Of a stretch of 8,550 nucleotides of DNA, positions 93-7,041 are shown piece by piece; the first letter of the stretch is position 1; each line of letters opens with the position of its first letter. The notes beneath the pieces were generated by a model that saw nothing but the letters and a program-made list of their open reading frames with translations, did not search any database and had not been told where the DNA came from. The DNA comes from an uncultured Lachnospiraceae bacterium (GTDB taxonomy: Bacteria > Bacillota_A > Clostridia > Lachnospirales > Lachnospiraceae): the NCBI GenBank assembly GCA_947177885.1, contig CAMWWF010000109.1:1-8550 (forward strand), given 5' to 3'. Position numbers and translations under genes: made by a program.

Positions 93-761
93 TCAGCACT
101 TGATCTCCAGATAGCCGAGAAGCTTGCTCATATCGTACTCCTCCAGCACGCCCAGATTGGAATCATAGTACTTTCCGTCGAAATGAATGAGGTAATGGCT
201 GAAACGTCCCATTCTCTCCATCATGACGCAGCACTTGGGCAGTACGGCATCGCGTCCTTCGGTGTATACGATGATATCATTATGGTCGATTCCGTAGTAA
301 TTCAATGCGGAAATAATGCGTCCCATGGTCGCCTGCCACTCACGGCAGTCCATAACGCTCATGACCTCCGCAATGGTAACTCCCGCCAGCATGGCCACGC
401 ATGCCTGTCCGCAAAGTCCGTCCTCAGGCTGGATGATAACCTCCATACTGTCAATCTTACGGATAGGCTTTTCAAAGCTGAAAGGACTGTTCTGATCCAT
501 GCGGATCAGGGACCCGTTTACATGGAGCAGGATCTTGTGGGTAACACCCATCTCTACATTGACCGCATCCTCATCCGTAATATGGATCTCATAATTTCCC
601 TTCTCCTTGGGATGCAGCTCACAGTCGATGATCTTGTTATCCAGAACCACATCGCCCTGGATCACGTCTCTCTGCTTACATACCTCCCACACATTGAAAG
701 GAATCTGGATCGTATAGCCCTTCTCCTGCTTCTCAACCTTAGATTCGAAAAAATACCTCAT
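93..761 (-). CDS. DUF1905-like domain fused to a C39-like cysteine peptidase domain
   Basis: A predicted cytosolic protein of 222 residues with no signal peptide or membrane segment. Residues about 2-85 look like a DUF1905-type beta domain: a GYTIQIP strand, a V.G.V segment, then KGNYEIHI. Residues about 105-215 read as a papain-fold, C39-like domain: Gln111 as oxyanion residue, then DGLCGQAC with Cys117 as likely nucleophile, His189 in FSHYLIHFDG and Asp200 in YYDSN as the rest of the triad. The start at 761 was chosen because GGAGG lies 9 bases upstream; an ATG at 767 is only 3 bases from it. The gene has its own promoter and does not appear to be in an operon with the AraC gene. The peptidase assignment rests on triad spacing; substrate and role are unknown. 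It could also be a catalytically inactive C39-fold binding domain. Confidence 0.68.
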   Translation of the reverse strand: MRYFFESKVEKQEKGYTIQIPFNVWEVCKQRDVIQGDVVLDNKIIDCELHPKEKGNYEIHITDEDAVNVEMGVTHKILLHVNGSLIRMDQNSPFSFEKPIRKIDSMEVIIQPEDGLCGQACVAMLAGVTIAEVMSVMDCREWQATMGRIISALNYYGIDHNDIIVYTEGRDAVLPKCCVMMERMGRFSHYLIHFDGKYYDSNLGVLEEYDMSKLLGYLEIKC

Positions 762-770
762 AATCATATA

Positions 771-2173: not shown

Positions 2174-3940
2174 ATGAAACCGCTAAAATGGTTCTACTCG
2201 TTTCTGAAAAAGTACAGGGCACGGCTCTGTCTGGGGCTGTTCCTGACCACCTGTATCGCCGGGTTGTCCATTGTCAACCCCTACCTGTCCGGCATCATTG
2301 TGGATGACGTGGTGCTGGCAGGCGATCACGGCCTGCTGCCCGGGCTTATCGCCTGTCTGCTGGGAGTAACACTCTTCACCGGCATCCTGCGTTTTGCCTA
2401 CCAGGTAACCTTCGAAACCGCGTCCCAGGGCCTGCTCTACGATATGCGCGGCAAGGTATACCGCAAGCTTCTGGAGGAAGACTTCGCCTTCTATAACCGG
2501 AAGAGGACCGGCGATCTGATGAGCCGGCAGACCGGCGATATGGATGCCATCCGGCATTTTGTAGCAGCTGTTATTTATACTGTCTATCAGAATATCCTGC
2601 TTTTCTTCTTCGCGCTGTTGATGGTATTCACCGTCAATACAAAGCTGGCTCTGTGCATGCTGGTGGTGCTTCCCTTTACGGCAGTCGCCACTTATAAACA
2701 GTCCAAAGAGGTCAGGCCCGCCTTTCAGAGGAACCGTGAGTGCTTCTCCTCCCTCAACGCCTTCGTGCAGGAGAATATCAGCGGCAACCGGGTGGTCAAG
2801 GCCTTTGCCAAAGAAGACTATGAGATTGAAAAATTTGAAAAGGAAAACGATAAATTTATGAATTCCCAGATCCGGGGCTCCAGGGTGTGGATGAAATACG
2901 TTCCCATCTTCGAGATCCTCTCTTACTCGCTCACCATCATCCTCATGCTCTACGGCGGATACATGGTGATCCGGGGTGAGATCACCATGGGCGACCTGGT
3001 CAAGGTAAACGGCTATCTGTGGATGCTGAACACCCCTCTGCGTATGGCGGGCTGGTGGGTCAACGACATCCAGAATTTCATTACCTCCGTGGAAAAAATA
3101 TATGCCACATACAGTGAGGAACCCAGGGTCAGGACGCCCCGCACCGGCGGGATCAACGCCAGGATCCATGGGGATGTGGAATTCAGGGACGTATCCTACC
3201 GCACCGATGACGAAGATATTATCCGGAATATCAATTTTAAGGTAAAGGCGGGACAACGTGTAGGCATCATAGGCTCCACCGGCTCCGGAAAATCCACCCT
3301 GATGAACCTGCTCTGCCGCTTCTATGACACCACCTCGGGGGAGATTCTGGTGGACGGACAGGACGTGCGCCGCCACGACCTGTACAACCTCCGCGACAAC
3401 ATCGGCATGGCGATGCAGGATGTCTTCCTCTTCTCCGATACCATTGAAGGAAACATCGCCTACGGCAGGCCGGACTGCAGCTTTGAGGAGGTGAAGCATG
3501 CCGCCGTCATGGCAGACGCCAATCACTTTATCAGCGCGCTGCCCGAGGGCTACGACACCATCGTGGGAGAAAGGGGCGTAGGTCTCTCCGGAGGCCAGAA
3601 ACAGCGGATCTCCCTGGCACGCGCCCTGTTGAAGGATCCCGCCATCCTGATCCTGGACGACACCACCTCCGCCGTGGACATGGAGACGGAAAGCTATATC
3701 CAGACACAGCTGAAAAAGATCCAGAAAAGCTGCACCGTATTTATCATCGCCTACCGCATTTCTTCCATAAAAGATGCGGACCTGATCCTGGTCATGGACG
3801 GCGGACGCATCATTGAACAGGGAACCCATCAGGAACTGATAGCAAAAGGCGGTTATTATGCCAGGGCATTCCACAATCAATACGGTGAGATTCCGTATCA
3901 ATTACTGGAAGAAAAGAAGAGAGCGCGGAAGACCGGCTAG
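2174..3940 (+). CDS. Heterodimeric ABC exporter, subunit with degenerate ATPase site
   Basis: A half-transporter of 588 residues, normal for a type IV ABC exporter with one six-helix membrane domain (residues about 12-300) and one nucleotide-binding domain (about 333-570). Visible motifs: A-loop Tyr342, Walker A GSTGSGKST at 367-375, Q-loop Gln415, intact signature LSGGQ at 471-475, Walker B ILILDD at 491-496. Asp496 sits where the catalytic Glu should be, and Tyr527 (IIAYR) replaces the switch His, so its own Walker site should hydrolyse ATP poorly. This is the pattern of the BmrC/TM287 side of heterodimeric exporters. The partner is the next gene, 139 bases downstream. The start has only a weak AGG 8 bases upstream. 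Substrate cannot be read from sequence; a drug, lipid or peptide is possible. Confidence 0.96.
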   Translation: MKPLKWFYSFLKKYRARLCLGLFLTTCIAGLSIVNPYLSGIIVDDVVLAGDHGLLPGLIACLLGVTLFTGILRFAYQVTFETASQGLLYDMRGKVYRKLLEEDFAFYNRKRTGDLMSRQTGDMDAIRHFVAAVIYTVYQNILLFFFALLMVFTVNTKLALCMLVVLPFTAVATYKQSKEVRPAFQRNRECFSSLNAFVQENISGNRVVKAFAKEDYEIEKFEKENDKFMNSQIRGSRVWMKYVPIFEILSYSLTIILMLYGGYMVIRGEITMGDLVKVNGYLWMLNTPLRMAGWWVNDIQNFITSVEKIYATYSEEPRVRTPRTGGINARIHGDVEFRDVSYRTDDEDIIRNINFKVKAGQRVGIIGSTGSGKSTLMNLLCRFYDTTSGEILVDGQDVRRHDLYNLRDNIGMAMQDVFLFSDTIEGNIAYGRPDCSFEEVKHAAVMADANHFISALPEGYDTIVGERGVGLSGGQKQRISLARALLKDPAILILDDTTSAVDMETESYIQTQLKKIQKSCTVFIIAYRISSIKDADLILVMDGGRIIEQGTHQELIAKGGYYARAFHNQYGEIPYQLLEEKKRARKTG

Positions 3941-4065
3941 TGTGAACAATAACCCTTTAAATAAAACAGCATGTGCCCGAACAGGCAATGTGCCGCCATG
4001 CACGGAAACAATTACCGGCATGCATTTGATCATGTACATAAAATCGCCTTGTACGGCAATGAAAC

Positions 4066-4070
4066 AGGAG
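4066..4070 (+). promoter_or_regulatory. Ribosome binding site deciding the second exporter start
   Basis: AGGAG lies 9 bases before the ATG at 4080. The frame stays open back to 3858 inside the preceding gene, but no upstream ATG has such a site and the extra residues do not resemble transporter sequence. Confidence 0.8.
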
Positions 4071-4079
4071 AAAACAAAA

Positions 4080-5870
4080 ATGGCACGAAACAGATATGAT
4101 GTGGACGAAGTATTGGAAGACAGTTTTGACTATGGCCAGTTAAAACGCCTCGCCGGCTATATCTCCCCTTATAAGAAAAAAATGGCGGGTGTTATTGTCC
4201 TGATGCTCTCCTCCTCCGCCCTGACTATGATGATCCCCATCTTTTTTCAGCGGATCATGGATATTTATATCCCTTCAAAAGACATGCATAAGATCCTTCT
4301 TGTCAGTGTACTGACTTTTCTGATCGCCTGCTACTCCGCGGTCAGCCTGCGGATCAAGATCAGAACCATGAGCATCGTGGGCCAGAGCATTATCCACTCC
4401 ATCCGCAGCGACATCTTTGCCCACCTGCAGGAGCTGCCCTTTTCCTATTATGACGACAGACCTCACGGGAAGATCCAGGTGCGTGTGGTAAATTACGTCA
4501 ACAGCCTGAGTGACTTATTGAGCAACGGTATCATCAACACCGTCACTGATCTGTGCAATCTGTTCTTTATCATCATTTTCATGCTGATCTGTGATCCCGG
4601 GCTGACCCTTGTATGTCTCTGCGGCCTTCCCCTCCTGGCGGTCGTGATCGTCTTTATCAAGAGAAGACAGAGACGGGCATGGCAGGTCCAGTCCAACAAG
4701 CAGAGCAATCTGAACGCTTACATAGCCGAGAGCATCAACGGCATACGCGTCACACAGTCCTTTGTCCGCGAGAAGGAAAACAACGGCATCTTCAACCGTC
4801 TCAGCGGCAATTACCGTAAAGCATGGATGCACGCCGTCATGCTGAACTTTACCATGGGCCCCAGCGTGGATATCATTTCCGCCATCACCACCGCCTTTGT
4901 CTATGTGCTGGGAATCCACCGGATCCTGGCTCCTGACGCCACGCTGACGGTAGGTGTGCTGATTGCCTTTACCGCCTATATCGGCCGTTTCTGGGCTCCC
5001 ATCAACACACTGGCAGGCTTTTATAATTCCCTGCTCACCGCCATCTCCTATCTGGAGCGCATTTTTGAGACCATCGACGAGCCCGTGGACGTGAAGGACG
5101 CGGAAAATGCCGTGGAGATGCCTCCCATCAAAGGAGAAGTCGAGTTTAAAGATGTATGCTTCAGCTATGAGGAAGGGCACCGTATTCTGGATCACATTAA
5201 CTTTACGGCAAAGCAGGGAGAGACCTACGCCTTCGTAGGTCCCACCGGCGCCGGCAAGTCCACCATCGTCAATCTGATCAGCCGCTTCTACAATGTAGAT
5301 TCCGGTCAGGTGCTGATCGACGGCACGGACATCTCCGGTGTCACCATCCGCTCCCTGCGGAGCCGGATGGGTGTCATGATGCAGGACAGCTTTATATTCT
5401 CCGGCACGATCATGGATAACATACGTTACGGAAACAGAGCTGCCACCGACGAGCAGGTCATCGCCGCTGCCAAAACAGTCTGCGCCCACGATTTCATCAG
5501 CCAAATGGAAAACGGCTATTACACAGAGGTCAACGAGCGCGGAAGCCGCCTCTCCGCAGGGCAGAGACAGCTGATTTCCTTTGCCAGGGCGCTGCTGGCG
5601 GATCCCGCCATCCTGATCCTGGACGAGGCCACCTCCAGCATCGATACGGAGACGGAAATCCTGCTGCAGAAGGGCCTGAATGAGCTGCTGAAGGGACGGA
5701 CCTCCTTCATCATCGCCCACCGCCTCTCCACCATCCAGAATGCGGATCGCATTATGTACATCGACAAGGGAGGCATCCTGGAGAGCGGCACTCATGAGGA
5801 ACTGCTGGCGCAGAAAGGCGCTTACTATGAACTGTACATGAGCCAGTTTGATTTTCTGAGCGGAACATAA
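4080..5870 (+). CDS. Heterodimeric ABC exporter, subunit with intact catalytic residues
   Basis: A half-transporter of 596 residues with a six-helix membrane domain (residues about 28-325) and a nucleotide-binding domain (about 353-585). Motifs: Walker A GPTGAGKST at 387-395, Q-loop Gln435, Walker B ILILDE at 511-516 with catalytic Glu516, and switch His547 (IIAHR). Its signature is LSAGQ at 491-495, with Ala for the second-position Gly of LSGGQ. That signature faces the degenerate Walker site of the upstream subunit, so the defects fall in one composite site, while Glu516/His547 pair with the intact LSGGQ of the partner. A charged, helical N-terminal stretch (VDEVLEDSFDYGQLKRL) precedes helix 1, as usual for this side of the pair. 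It is likely co-transcribed with the upstream gene. No convincing terminator follows. Confidence 0.96.
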   Translation: MARNRYDVDEVLEDSFDYGQLKRLAGYISPYKKKMAGVIVLMLSSSALTMMIPIFFQRIMDIYIPSKDMHKILLVSVLTFLIACYSAVSLRIKIRTMSIVGQSIIHSIRSDIFAHLQELPFSYYDDRPHGKIQVRVVNYVNSLSDLLSNGIINTVTDLCNLFFIIIFMLICDPGLTLVCLCGLPLLAVVIVFIKRRQRRAWQVQSNKQSNLNAYIAESINGIRVTQSFVREKENNGIFNRLSGNYRKAWMHAVMLNFTMGPSVDIISAITTAFVYVLGIHRILAPDATLTVGVLIAFTAYIGRFWAPINTLAGFYNSLLTAISYLERIFETIDEPVDVKDAENAVEMPPIKGEVEFKDVCFSYEEGHRILDHINFTAKQGETYAFVGPTGAGKSTIVNLISRFYNVDSGQVLIDGTDISGVTIRSLRSRMGVMMQDSFIFSGTIMDNIRYGNRAATDEQVIAAAKTVCAHDFISQMENGYYTEVNERGSRLSAGQRQLISFARALLADPAILILDEATSSIDTETEILLQKGLNELLKGRTSFIIAHRLSTIQNADRIMYIDKGGILESGTHEELLAQKGAYYELYMSQFDFLSGT

Positions 5871-6054: not shown

Positions 6055-6076
6055 CGGGCGGCAGGATTGCCGCCCG
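6055..6076 (-). terminator. Terminator of the MotA-like/LuxR regulator gene
   Basis: A perfect 9-bp GC-rich stem (CGGGCGGCA with TGCCGCCCG) closes a four-base loop. On the minus strand it is followed by GATTATTTT, a moderate T-tract. It begins about 30 bases beyond the stop codon at 6106. On the plus strand the following bases are A-rich, so it would serve the convergent ABC operon poorly. Confidence 0.7.
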
Positions 6077-6105: not shown

Positions 6106-6846
6106 TCACAGGATCCGTATCCTCTTCGTCAGCTCTTCCCGGTCCGCCATTCCAGTCTTCTCCAGGATATGGGTAATATGCTTTTTCACTGTGGTGTCAG
6201 AAATATAGAGCATCTTACCGATCTCCCTGTTGGTCATATCACAGCTTACCAGCCGGGCGACCTCGGCTTCCCGGTCCGTCAATCCCATCGCCCTCAGCTT
6301 AAAATAGATCGTCTGGGCTTCCTCCACGGAAATCTCCGCCTCCGGTTCCTCCATATAAGAAGCCAGCATATTTTCCAGCTTTGCGATAAATATCGTCAAC
6401 AGCACAGCTATTGTGGATGCATACACTATGCTTAATATGGTAACCGCAAAGGCCGGACCGAACATAATGTCAACACCCCAGTCCACATGATACAGTAAGT
6501 CCGTCACACAGATGAATATCTCGAACACTGCTTCCATAAATATCAGTGTCCTGGTATATTTCACGGCGTTACACGCCCTTTGCAGTTTGGTTCTGGAACA
6601 GTCATTCTTATCCGAGAACGCCAGCTGGAGTCCGTTCAGAAAATCTTTTCCCACCCCGCTCAGCCATAATACAATGATGGTAAAAAGCACCATGCTCCCC
6701 AGCGTCGGCAGATCCACATACTGTTGATAACCGGATACTCCCGCCGTAGAAATGATATTGAACCAGATAAACAAACAGAATGCAATCAACATCCCTGCCA
6801 GTTTCAAATTTTCTTTCTTCTTAAATCCCATCCATACACGTTTCAT
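6106..6846 (-). CDS. Membrane-anchored LuxR-type regulator with MotA-like membrane domain
   Basis: A 246-residue protein with four predicted membrane helices (about 16-35, 47-65, 101-119, 129-155) and a C-terminal LuxR/GerE helix-turn-helix (about 189-244: LTDREAEVARLV, TNREIGKMLYIS, TTVKKHITHIL). The membrane part reads like flagellar stator MotA: YVDLPTL before helix 2, then KDFLNGLQLAF, and GPAFAV...Y...A with KLE at the end of helix 4, matching the GPA.AV and IA.KLE positions of MotA. The loop between helices 2 and 3 is about 35 residues, much shorter than in MotA, and helix 3 lacks a proline, so proton conduction is doubtful. No Asp-phosphoacceptor receiver domain is present. ATG at 6846 was chosen for GGAGG 7 bases upstream; a GTG at 6852 is too close. 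It likely senses a membrane state and binds DNA while tethered; targets are unknown. Confidence 0.85.
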   Translation of the reverse strand: MKRVWMGFKKKENLKLAGMLIAFCLFIWFNIISTAGVSGYQQYVDLPTLGSMVLFTIIVLWLSGVGKDFLNGLQLAFSDKNDCSRTKLQRACNAVKYTRTLIFMEAVFEIFICVTDLLYHVDWGVDIMFGPAFAVTILSIVYASTIAVLLTIFIAKLENMLASYMEEPEAEISVEEAQTIYFKLRAMGLTDREAEVARLVSCDMTNREIGKMLYISDTTVKKHITHILEKTGMADREELTKRIRIL

Positions 6847-6890: not shown

Positions 6891-6978
6891 ATGTTACCAT
6901 CGGCCGGCGGAACAACTTCTGTCCAAAGTTCATGACTATACCCCAATGCGCATTTCGGGAATAACATCATGGTAATAT
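6891..6978. repeat. Widely spaced inverted repeat upstream of the LuxR-type gene
   Basis: ATGTTACCAT (6891-6900) and ATGGTAATAT (6969-6978) are inverted copies matching at nine of ten positions, 68 bases apart. Between them on the minus strand is a candidate -10, TATAGT (6940-6935), with no good -35. They could be paired operator sites; chance is not excluded. Confidence 0.35.
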
Positions 6979-7010
6979 GAGAACACCTTTTATTTCAATA
7001 CTTTCCCGCC

Positions 7011-7041
7011 AAAAAGGAGGTAGTATTTTTATACTACCTCC
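7011..7041 (-). terminator. Intrinsic terminator of mgtE
   Basis: A perfect 11-bp stem (GGAGGTAGTAT with its complement, 7016-7041) closes a four-base loop. On the minus strand it runs straight into five T residues (7015-7011). It lies about 65 bases beyond the mgtE stop and separates mgtE from the LuxR-type gene. On the plus strand GAATTTT follows, so weak bidirectional action is possible. Confidence 0.9.

Follow-up and report, generated by a model that had tools for sequence, protein, structure and literature searches.

A putative membrane-anchored LuxR-type transcription regulator with a MotA-derived, non-motor module in Lachnospiraceae

One gene on the reverse strand of the window (the whole 8,550-nucleotide stretch of Lachnospiraceae DNA analysed here, probably from a gut bacterium) very probably encodes a LuxR-type transcription regulator that is anchored in the membrane by a MotA-derived part without motor function; this estimate pertains to the protein and excludes the signal. 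A sequence-only reading of the gene had proposed a MotA-like membrane half fused to a C-terminal LuxR helix-turn-helix (HTH), and family profiles, the fold and a GerE match confirm this arrangement. The features of the gene and its flanks are as follows.

6106..6846, (-): MotA-derived membrane LuxR regulator gene from the ORF list, 246 aa, ATG at 6846, stop codon at 6106-6108
6343..6822, (-): MotA-fold membrane module, residues 9-168
6742..6804, (-): transmembrane helix 1 from the topology, residues 15-35 (model helix 11-35)
6658..6711, (-): transmembrane helix 2, residues 46-63 (model helix 46-63)
6559..6657, (-): short cytoplasmic loop, residues 64-96, 33 aa, K/R-rich (model helix 66-77)
6493..6558, (-): transmembrane helix 3, residues 97-118, without the MotA proline (model helix 85-119, unbroken)
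6385..6453, (-): transmembrane helix 4, residues 132-154, without the MotA TT pair (model helix 129-166)
6286..6342, (-): acidic linker, residues 169-187 (acidic C segment; low-confidence model segment 167-171)
6127..6285, (-): LuxR/GerE HTH, residues 188-240 (Pfam GerE, E 5.9e-12; structure matches)
6969..6998, (-): promoter-like site TTGAAA-18-TACCAT, within a stretch that 6 of the 7 relatives in alignment A6 retain
7016..7041, (-): terminator-like hairpin following mgtE, which lies upstream
6055..6076, (-): terminator-like hairpin downstream of the regulator gene

The assignment of the C-terminal domain to the LuxR/GerE HTH is well supported, with putative DNA binding: GerE scores 45.5 bits against a Pfam cut-off of 23.5, and the structure matches are the domains of NarL, LiaR and DosR. 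A search of 5.8 billion proteins yielded 152 homologues at E <= 1e-3; among the 120 matches listed, the Pfam column shows GerE in 119 and no membrane family. Most of the family loci L001-L032 that have a named record come from Lachnospiraceae or Acetatifactor, L016 being from the cultured Acetatifactor muris DSM 23669; some organism labels are doubtful, given that L036 (Muribaculaceae) is nearly the same as L038 (Blautia) and that L025 is labelled Thermoflexaceae. From the charge distribution (mean K+R per segment in the rows of alignment A2: N-tail 5.2, loop1 0.67, loop2 6.7, loop3 0.41), the topology is predicted to be N-in/C-in. Both ends being predicted inside, the LuxR domain would lie in the cytoplasm and not outside the cell, and the N-terminal Xre domain of some relatives would be cytoplasmic too under the same topology. 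By this prediction, a DNA-binding domain and membrane helices are combined in one chain with a cytoplasmic HTH, as in transmembrane transcription regulators (TTRs). Judging from substitution rates between the window and L001, both halves are maintained, with dN/dS below 1 in each and lower in the HTH (dN 0.079, dS 0.824) than in the module (dN 0.184, dS 0.817).

The MotA ancestry of the module is well supported. The module in the window has the four-helix transmembrane fold of MotA and, with family profiles, homology to MotA is detectable in sequence; over residues 1-160, profile and fold similarity are both significant, in agreement with the sequence-only reading. Four-helix membrane bundles could resemble each other by chance, but family profiles select MotA and PomA first among 177,635 PDB sequences, nine control families reach a prob of at most 0.9 in the family-profile comparison, stators head the structure-match list, and two relatives exceed the Pfam cut-off, all of which makes a chance resemblance extremely improbable. 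At the level of single proteins, GerE is matched, but the Pfam scan gave no PF01618 (MotA_ExbB) match for the window protein alone, and NCBIfam gave a weak MotP match (residues 9-49, E 0.004). Two relatives pass the curated PF01618 cut-off: L112, a separate module, with 30.4 bits, and L118, an Xre fusion, with 44.3 bits; one scan had 2 of 9 modules above the cut-off, another 0 of 7 relatives. MotP or PomA matched below the cut-off in all eight relatives scanned (best E 4.4e-9 to 0.084). Of MotA, TolQ and ExbB, named earlier as the proteins whose likeness should be sought, MotA is matched; ExbB and TolQ have no row among the PDB profile matches, an absence from a list that does not amount to exclusion, and one Xre-fused relative matches TolQ at E 0.017 versus PomA at E 4.4e-9. 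In some members (L008, L087), the helix 3-4 hairpin is close to that of the flagellar MotA of the same genome.

The loss of motor parts in the window module is likewise well supported. The loop between helices 2 and 3 spans 33-35 aa in the regulator family versus 93-94 aa in the 17 MotAs of alignment A4; the helix-3 proline is present in 5 of 104 family rows versus 17 of 17 MotA rows, and the helix-4 TT pair in none of the 104 versus all 17. The short inter-helix loop and the missing proline, both pointed out from the sequence, thus hold across the family. The proline and the TT pair are part of the MotA ion path; some Xre-fused relatives retain more MotA residues of this type than the window family does. 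The torque-generating interface, with at least four helices, is not found in the window model, which has one short loop helix. According to a MotAB homologue survey, this interface is diagnostic of flagellar stators, and its partial deletion abolishes Escherichia coli motility (PMC12505986). With the loop, the proline and the TT pair lost and the interface diagnostic of stators, the MotA-derived window module is not a motor subunit. As stated earlier, the window contains no gene for MotB, the adjacent B subunit. It is very unlikely that the module has kept its ion conduction, paired with a B subunit that escaped detection, and that the HTH is a by-product: a B gene is typically adjacent to MotA-family A subunits (PMC12505986), which would fit such a pair, but inspection by eye showed no MotB-like gene next to the module loci read, the proline is rare and the TT pair missing in the family, and dN/dS is lower in the HTH than in the module.

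The fusion in the window is one among several arrangements in which this module occurs:

Architecture 1, LuxR-fused: the window and L001-L028
Architecture 2, split: a module ORF of 147-237 aa followed by a LuxR gene on the same strand, with a gap of -97 to +46 bases, in 16 loci (L030, L031, L032, L036, L038, L110-L115, L130-L134)
Architecture 3, Xre-fused: 11 loci and 5 more
Architecture 4, module alone: L125, L127, L128

Among the split loci, the LuxR partner is only 79-85 aa long in L114 and L130-L132, and in L130-L132 the reading frames of the module and LuxR genes overlap, close to a fusion; the remaining partners are longer and have hydrophobic N-terminal parts. For the Xre-fused type, a listing of 16 rows with a precomputed Pfam column shows MotA_ExbB together with Xre-type HTH domains in 10. 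Immediately downstream of 16 of the 19 separate module genes read lies a LuxR gene on the same strand. The LuxR-fused loci and five of the 16 split loci were found with HTH patterns, so that their linkage is no evidence by itself, and the unbiased count is 11 of 14 modules with a LuxR neighbour. A sample of 200 genomes was drawn from the family to which G004 belongs, the genome that carries L006 and is labelled Lachnospiraceae. Among the listed matches of profiles A3 and A7 in this sample, there are 26 module loci in 25 genomes (1 LuxR-fused, 6 split, 16 Xre-fused and 3 alone), 23 of them HTH-linked. The first-pass profile A3 included no HTH residues; the second profile included modules from Xre fusions and therefore favours these. 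The other listed matches are mostly flagellar MotAs, often aligned only along helices 3-4. In a draw of 291 genomes from the whole class, 7 had full-module matches, 5 of them new. The repeated pairing of the module with DNA-binding domains is thus well supported and, both as a fusion and as an adjacent gene, speaks for regulation. The earlier view of a sensor rather than a motor gains from this frequent linkage, from the lost loop, proline and TT pair, and from the absent MotB, while sensing itself, along with the oligomeric state, the signal and the targets of the regulator, is what we infer.

Several further arrangements were encountered. L011 (637-1458 and 1627-2412) and L014 contain two LuxR-fused regulators of this family in tandem, and the homologues P0017 and P0045, which share one value for the length of their longest contig, may form a tandem pair, one without an HTH. 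A weak module-profile match over helices 3-4 (G165:C237:13528-13728, E 7.3e-6) lies within an 829-aa reading frame that, by size, is not a MotA and could be another fusion.

Nearly all of the module genomes checked encode FliG. FliG was found in 110 of the 200 genomes of the family sample and in 46 of 47 module genomes (24 of 25 in the sample and 22 of 22 others); in the exception, G037, neither FliG nor MotA was found. With the seed genome left out, 23 of 24 module genomes in the sample have FliG (p 3.8e-6, a value that ignores shared ancestry, as do all co-occurrence p-values given here; many of the genomes are draft assemblies). A PF01618 match above the cut-off is present in all 18 genomes first searched (best E 1e-33 to 1e-28), and many of these matches are, by eye, beside a motB-like gene. 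Some modules adjoin an orphan MotA gene, that is, one without a motB neighbour: 12 bases downstream of the LuxR-fused L025, 96 bases upstream of the split modules L036 and L038, overlapping the split module L113, and about 170 bases downstream of the Xre-fused L139/L143. A full-length MotA of the orphan type (54-60% identity, >300 bits; next match 251) is found in only 3 of the 200 sample genomes, G019, G065 and G082. All three are among the 25 module genomes (p 0.0018, ignoring shared ancestry), and in G082 the orphan MotA is on a different contig from the module. The genome of L030 has a further orphan MotA (L085) that is not adjacent to the module. In 42 of the 47 genomes checked for FliG, no MotA was seen beside the module, so a MotA partner is no obligate neighbour.

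By eye, a sigma-factor-like gene is located near the module gene L125 in G037, and Na/phosphate-cotransporter-like genes close to the orphan MotA L085 and to the Xre-fused module L126. L102 (G010:C33) encodes a small MotA/ExbB-family protein (1288-1797) followed by a one-helix partner-like gene (1794-2441), possibly a non-flagellar A/B pair.

The search for neighbours of homologues suggested earlier revealed LuxR genes, orphan MotA and ABC exporters beside modules in relatives. ABC exporter genes adjoin the module gene in L001, L002 and L004 (ATPase, permease), in L012, L018 and L023 (two permeases first) and in L112, L121 and L124, and lie upstream of the L032 module gene; the ABC neighbour in L013 is assigned by cluster only. 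These genes were identified by clustering and by eye; a sequence-pattern scan missed known cases. In the window, mgtE lies on one side of the regulator gene and a convergent ABC pair on the other, and the conservation of these flanks looks like plain synteny. The hairpin between mgtE and the regulator gene suggests that the latter is probably its own transcription unit, and it looks monocistronic, with its own promoter. The 7 relatives aligned over the promoter-like stretch include the window itself, and L003 lacks the stretch; three promoter-like sites occur in the region versus 1.8 expected in shuffles, so the site alone is weak evidence.

Elsewhere in the window, a pair of MsbA-like ABC exporters is encoded at 2174-3940 and 3858-5870 (+); the second ORF, as listed, overlaps the first, and its true start is probably further in (relatives start at MARNRYDVDEVLEDSFDY). 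A 224-aa protein encoded at 93-767 (-) shows a sub-threshold N-terminal match to DUF1905 (E 3.4e-4) and an unassigned C-terminal part with a GLCGQACVAMLAG stretch reminiscent, on inspection by eye, of a cysteine-peptidase-like motif; six of the compared loci encode a relative (cluster 8).

MotA subunits work as rings, which suggests that the module, too, would assemble. Profile, fold and charge evidence supports the view that the input half of the regulator is a stripped-down MotA subunit, with four transmembrane helices, both ends cytoplasmic and the rotor-driving loop removed. It would assemble with copies of itself, packed like MotA subunits in a stator ring. Where a full-length MotA-family subunit is present, it might join the assembly; such a partner is a plausible, if tentative, element of the scheme. 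The assembly would hold several DNA-binding domains at the inner face of the membrane, and a change in it, through partner binding or the membrane or ion-motive state, would switch DNA binding, the targets probably being the regulator's own promoter and, in relatives, the adjacent ABC exporter genes.

As for the signal, the main rival is that the module senses envelope stress or antimicrobials and induces a neighbouring ABC exporter, in the manner of BcrR and without any functional link to flagella. Several lineages have ABC exporter genes next to the module gene, and BcrR, a transmembrane regulator of the one-component type, has its gene immediately upstream of bcrAB (PMC3968067). However, the window and many other loci read have no exporter neighbour of that kind, the membrane part of BcrR scores -0.9 bits against the module HMM with an hhalign prob of 1.1 (a single BcrR sequence against A7), and the flagellar co-occurrence and orphan MotA neighbours would stay unexplained. 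We consider this possibility somewhat doubtful; it can coexist with the assembly mechanism. Alternatively, the regulator might read the flagellar stator itself, the module inserting into or competing for MotA/MotB assemblies such that transcription follows stator assembly or load. The near-universal presence of FliG in module genomes, the orphan MotA beside LuxR-fused, split and Xre-fused modules alike, and the likeness of some helix 3-4 hairpins to the flagellar MotA of the same genome (L008, L087) all fit, and DegS-DegU of Bacillus subtilis is activated when flagellar rotation is inhibited (PMC3963450). Nevertheless, no flagellar operon among the loci read contains a module gene, the window clade lost the proline and the TT pair of the ion path, and G037 has the module with neither FliG nor MotA found, so that stator reading seems unlikely. 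Similarly speculative is the broader scenario that flagellated Lachnospiraceae turned a stator subunit into LuxR and Xre membrane transcription factors that read MotA-family assemblies or ion-motive force and signal straight to promoters. If true, a motor fold would act on gene expression directly, with no kinase in between.

One-component regulators bound to the membrane form an established class (PMC10269533), and a MotA-derived input module in such regulators was not found in the open-access literature, including the parts covered of PMC12505986, PMC9389320 and PMC10269533; the main text of the 2025 MotAB homologue survey (PMC12505986) contains no mention of helix-turn-helix, transcription or LuxR. 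With the present family, HTH regulators join the domain contexts in which MotA-family proteins occur, and a concrete case is at hand of a rotary-motor subunit as the input of a transcription factor, in three forms (LuxR-fused, LuxR-split and Xre-fused). By what means membrane regulators that lack extracellular domains sense anything is an open question, stated for BcrR (PMC3968067), and it becomes testable here, with the input fold known and a candidate partner, the orphan MotA, next door in some genomes.

The window protein resembles the TTRs in uniting a DNA-binding domain and membrane helices in one polypeptide, but MotA and LuxR are absent as terms from the main text of PMC10269533, and no motor-derived input module was seen in the parts of it covered. 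Like some relatives of the window protein, BcrR, the bacitracin sensor of Enterococcus, is a one-component transmembrane regulator beside an ABC exporter (PMC3968067), but its HTH is of the Xre type and its membrane part does not match the module. The NarL/LuxR response regulators (DegU, LiaR, NarL, DosR) share the C-terminal HTH fold and have a receiver domain where the window protein has the membrane module. ExbB/TolQ and ZorA belong to the wider MotA superfamily (PMC12505986), ExbB/TolQ differing in their absence from the module's PDB profile matches. With MotA/PomA (the FIT class of PMC12505986), the window protein shares the four-helix fold, a helix 3 unbroken in the model, the predicted N-in/C-in topology and profile homology, but it lacks the torque loop, the helix-3 proline, the helix-4 TT pair and an adjacent B subunit, and carries a LuxR HTH.
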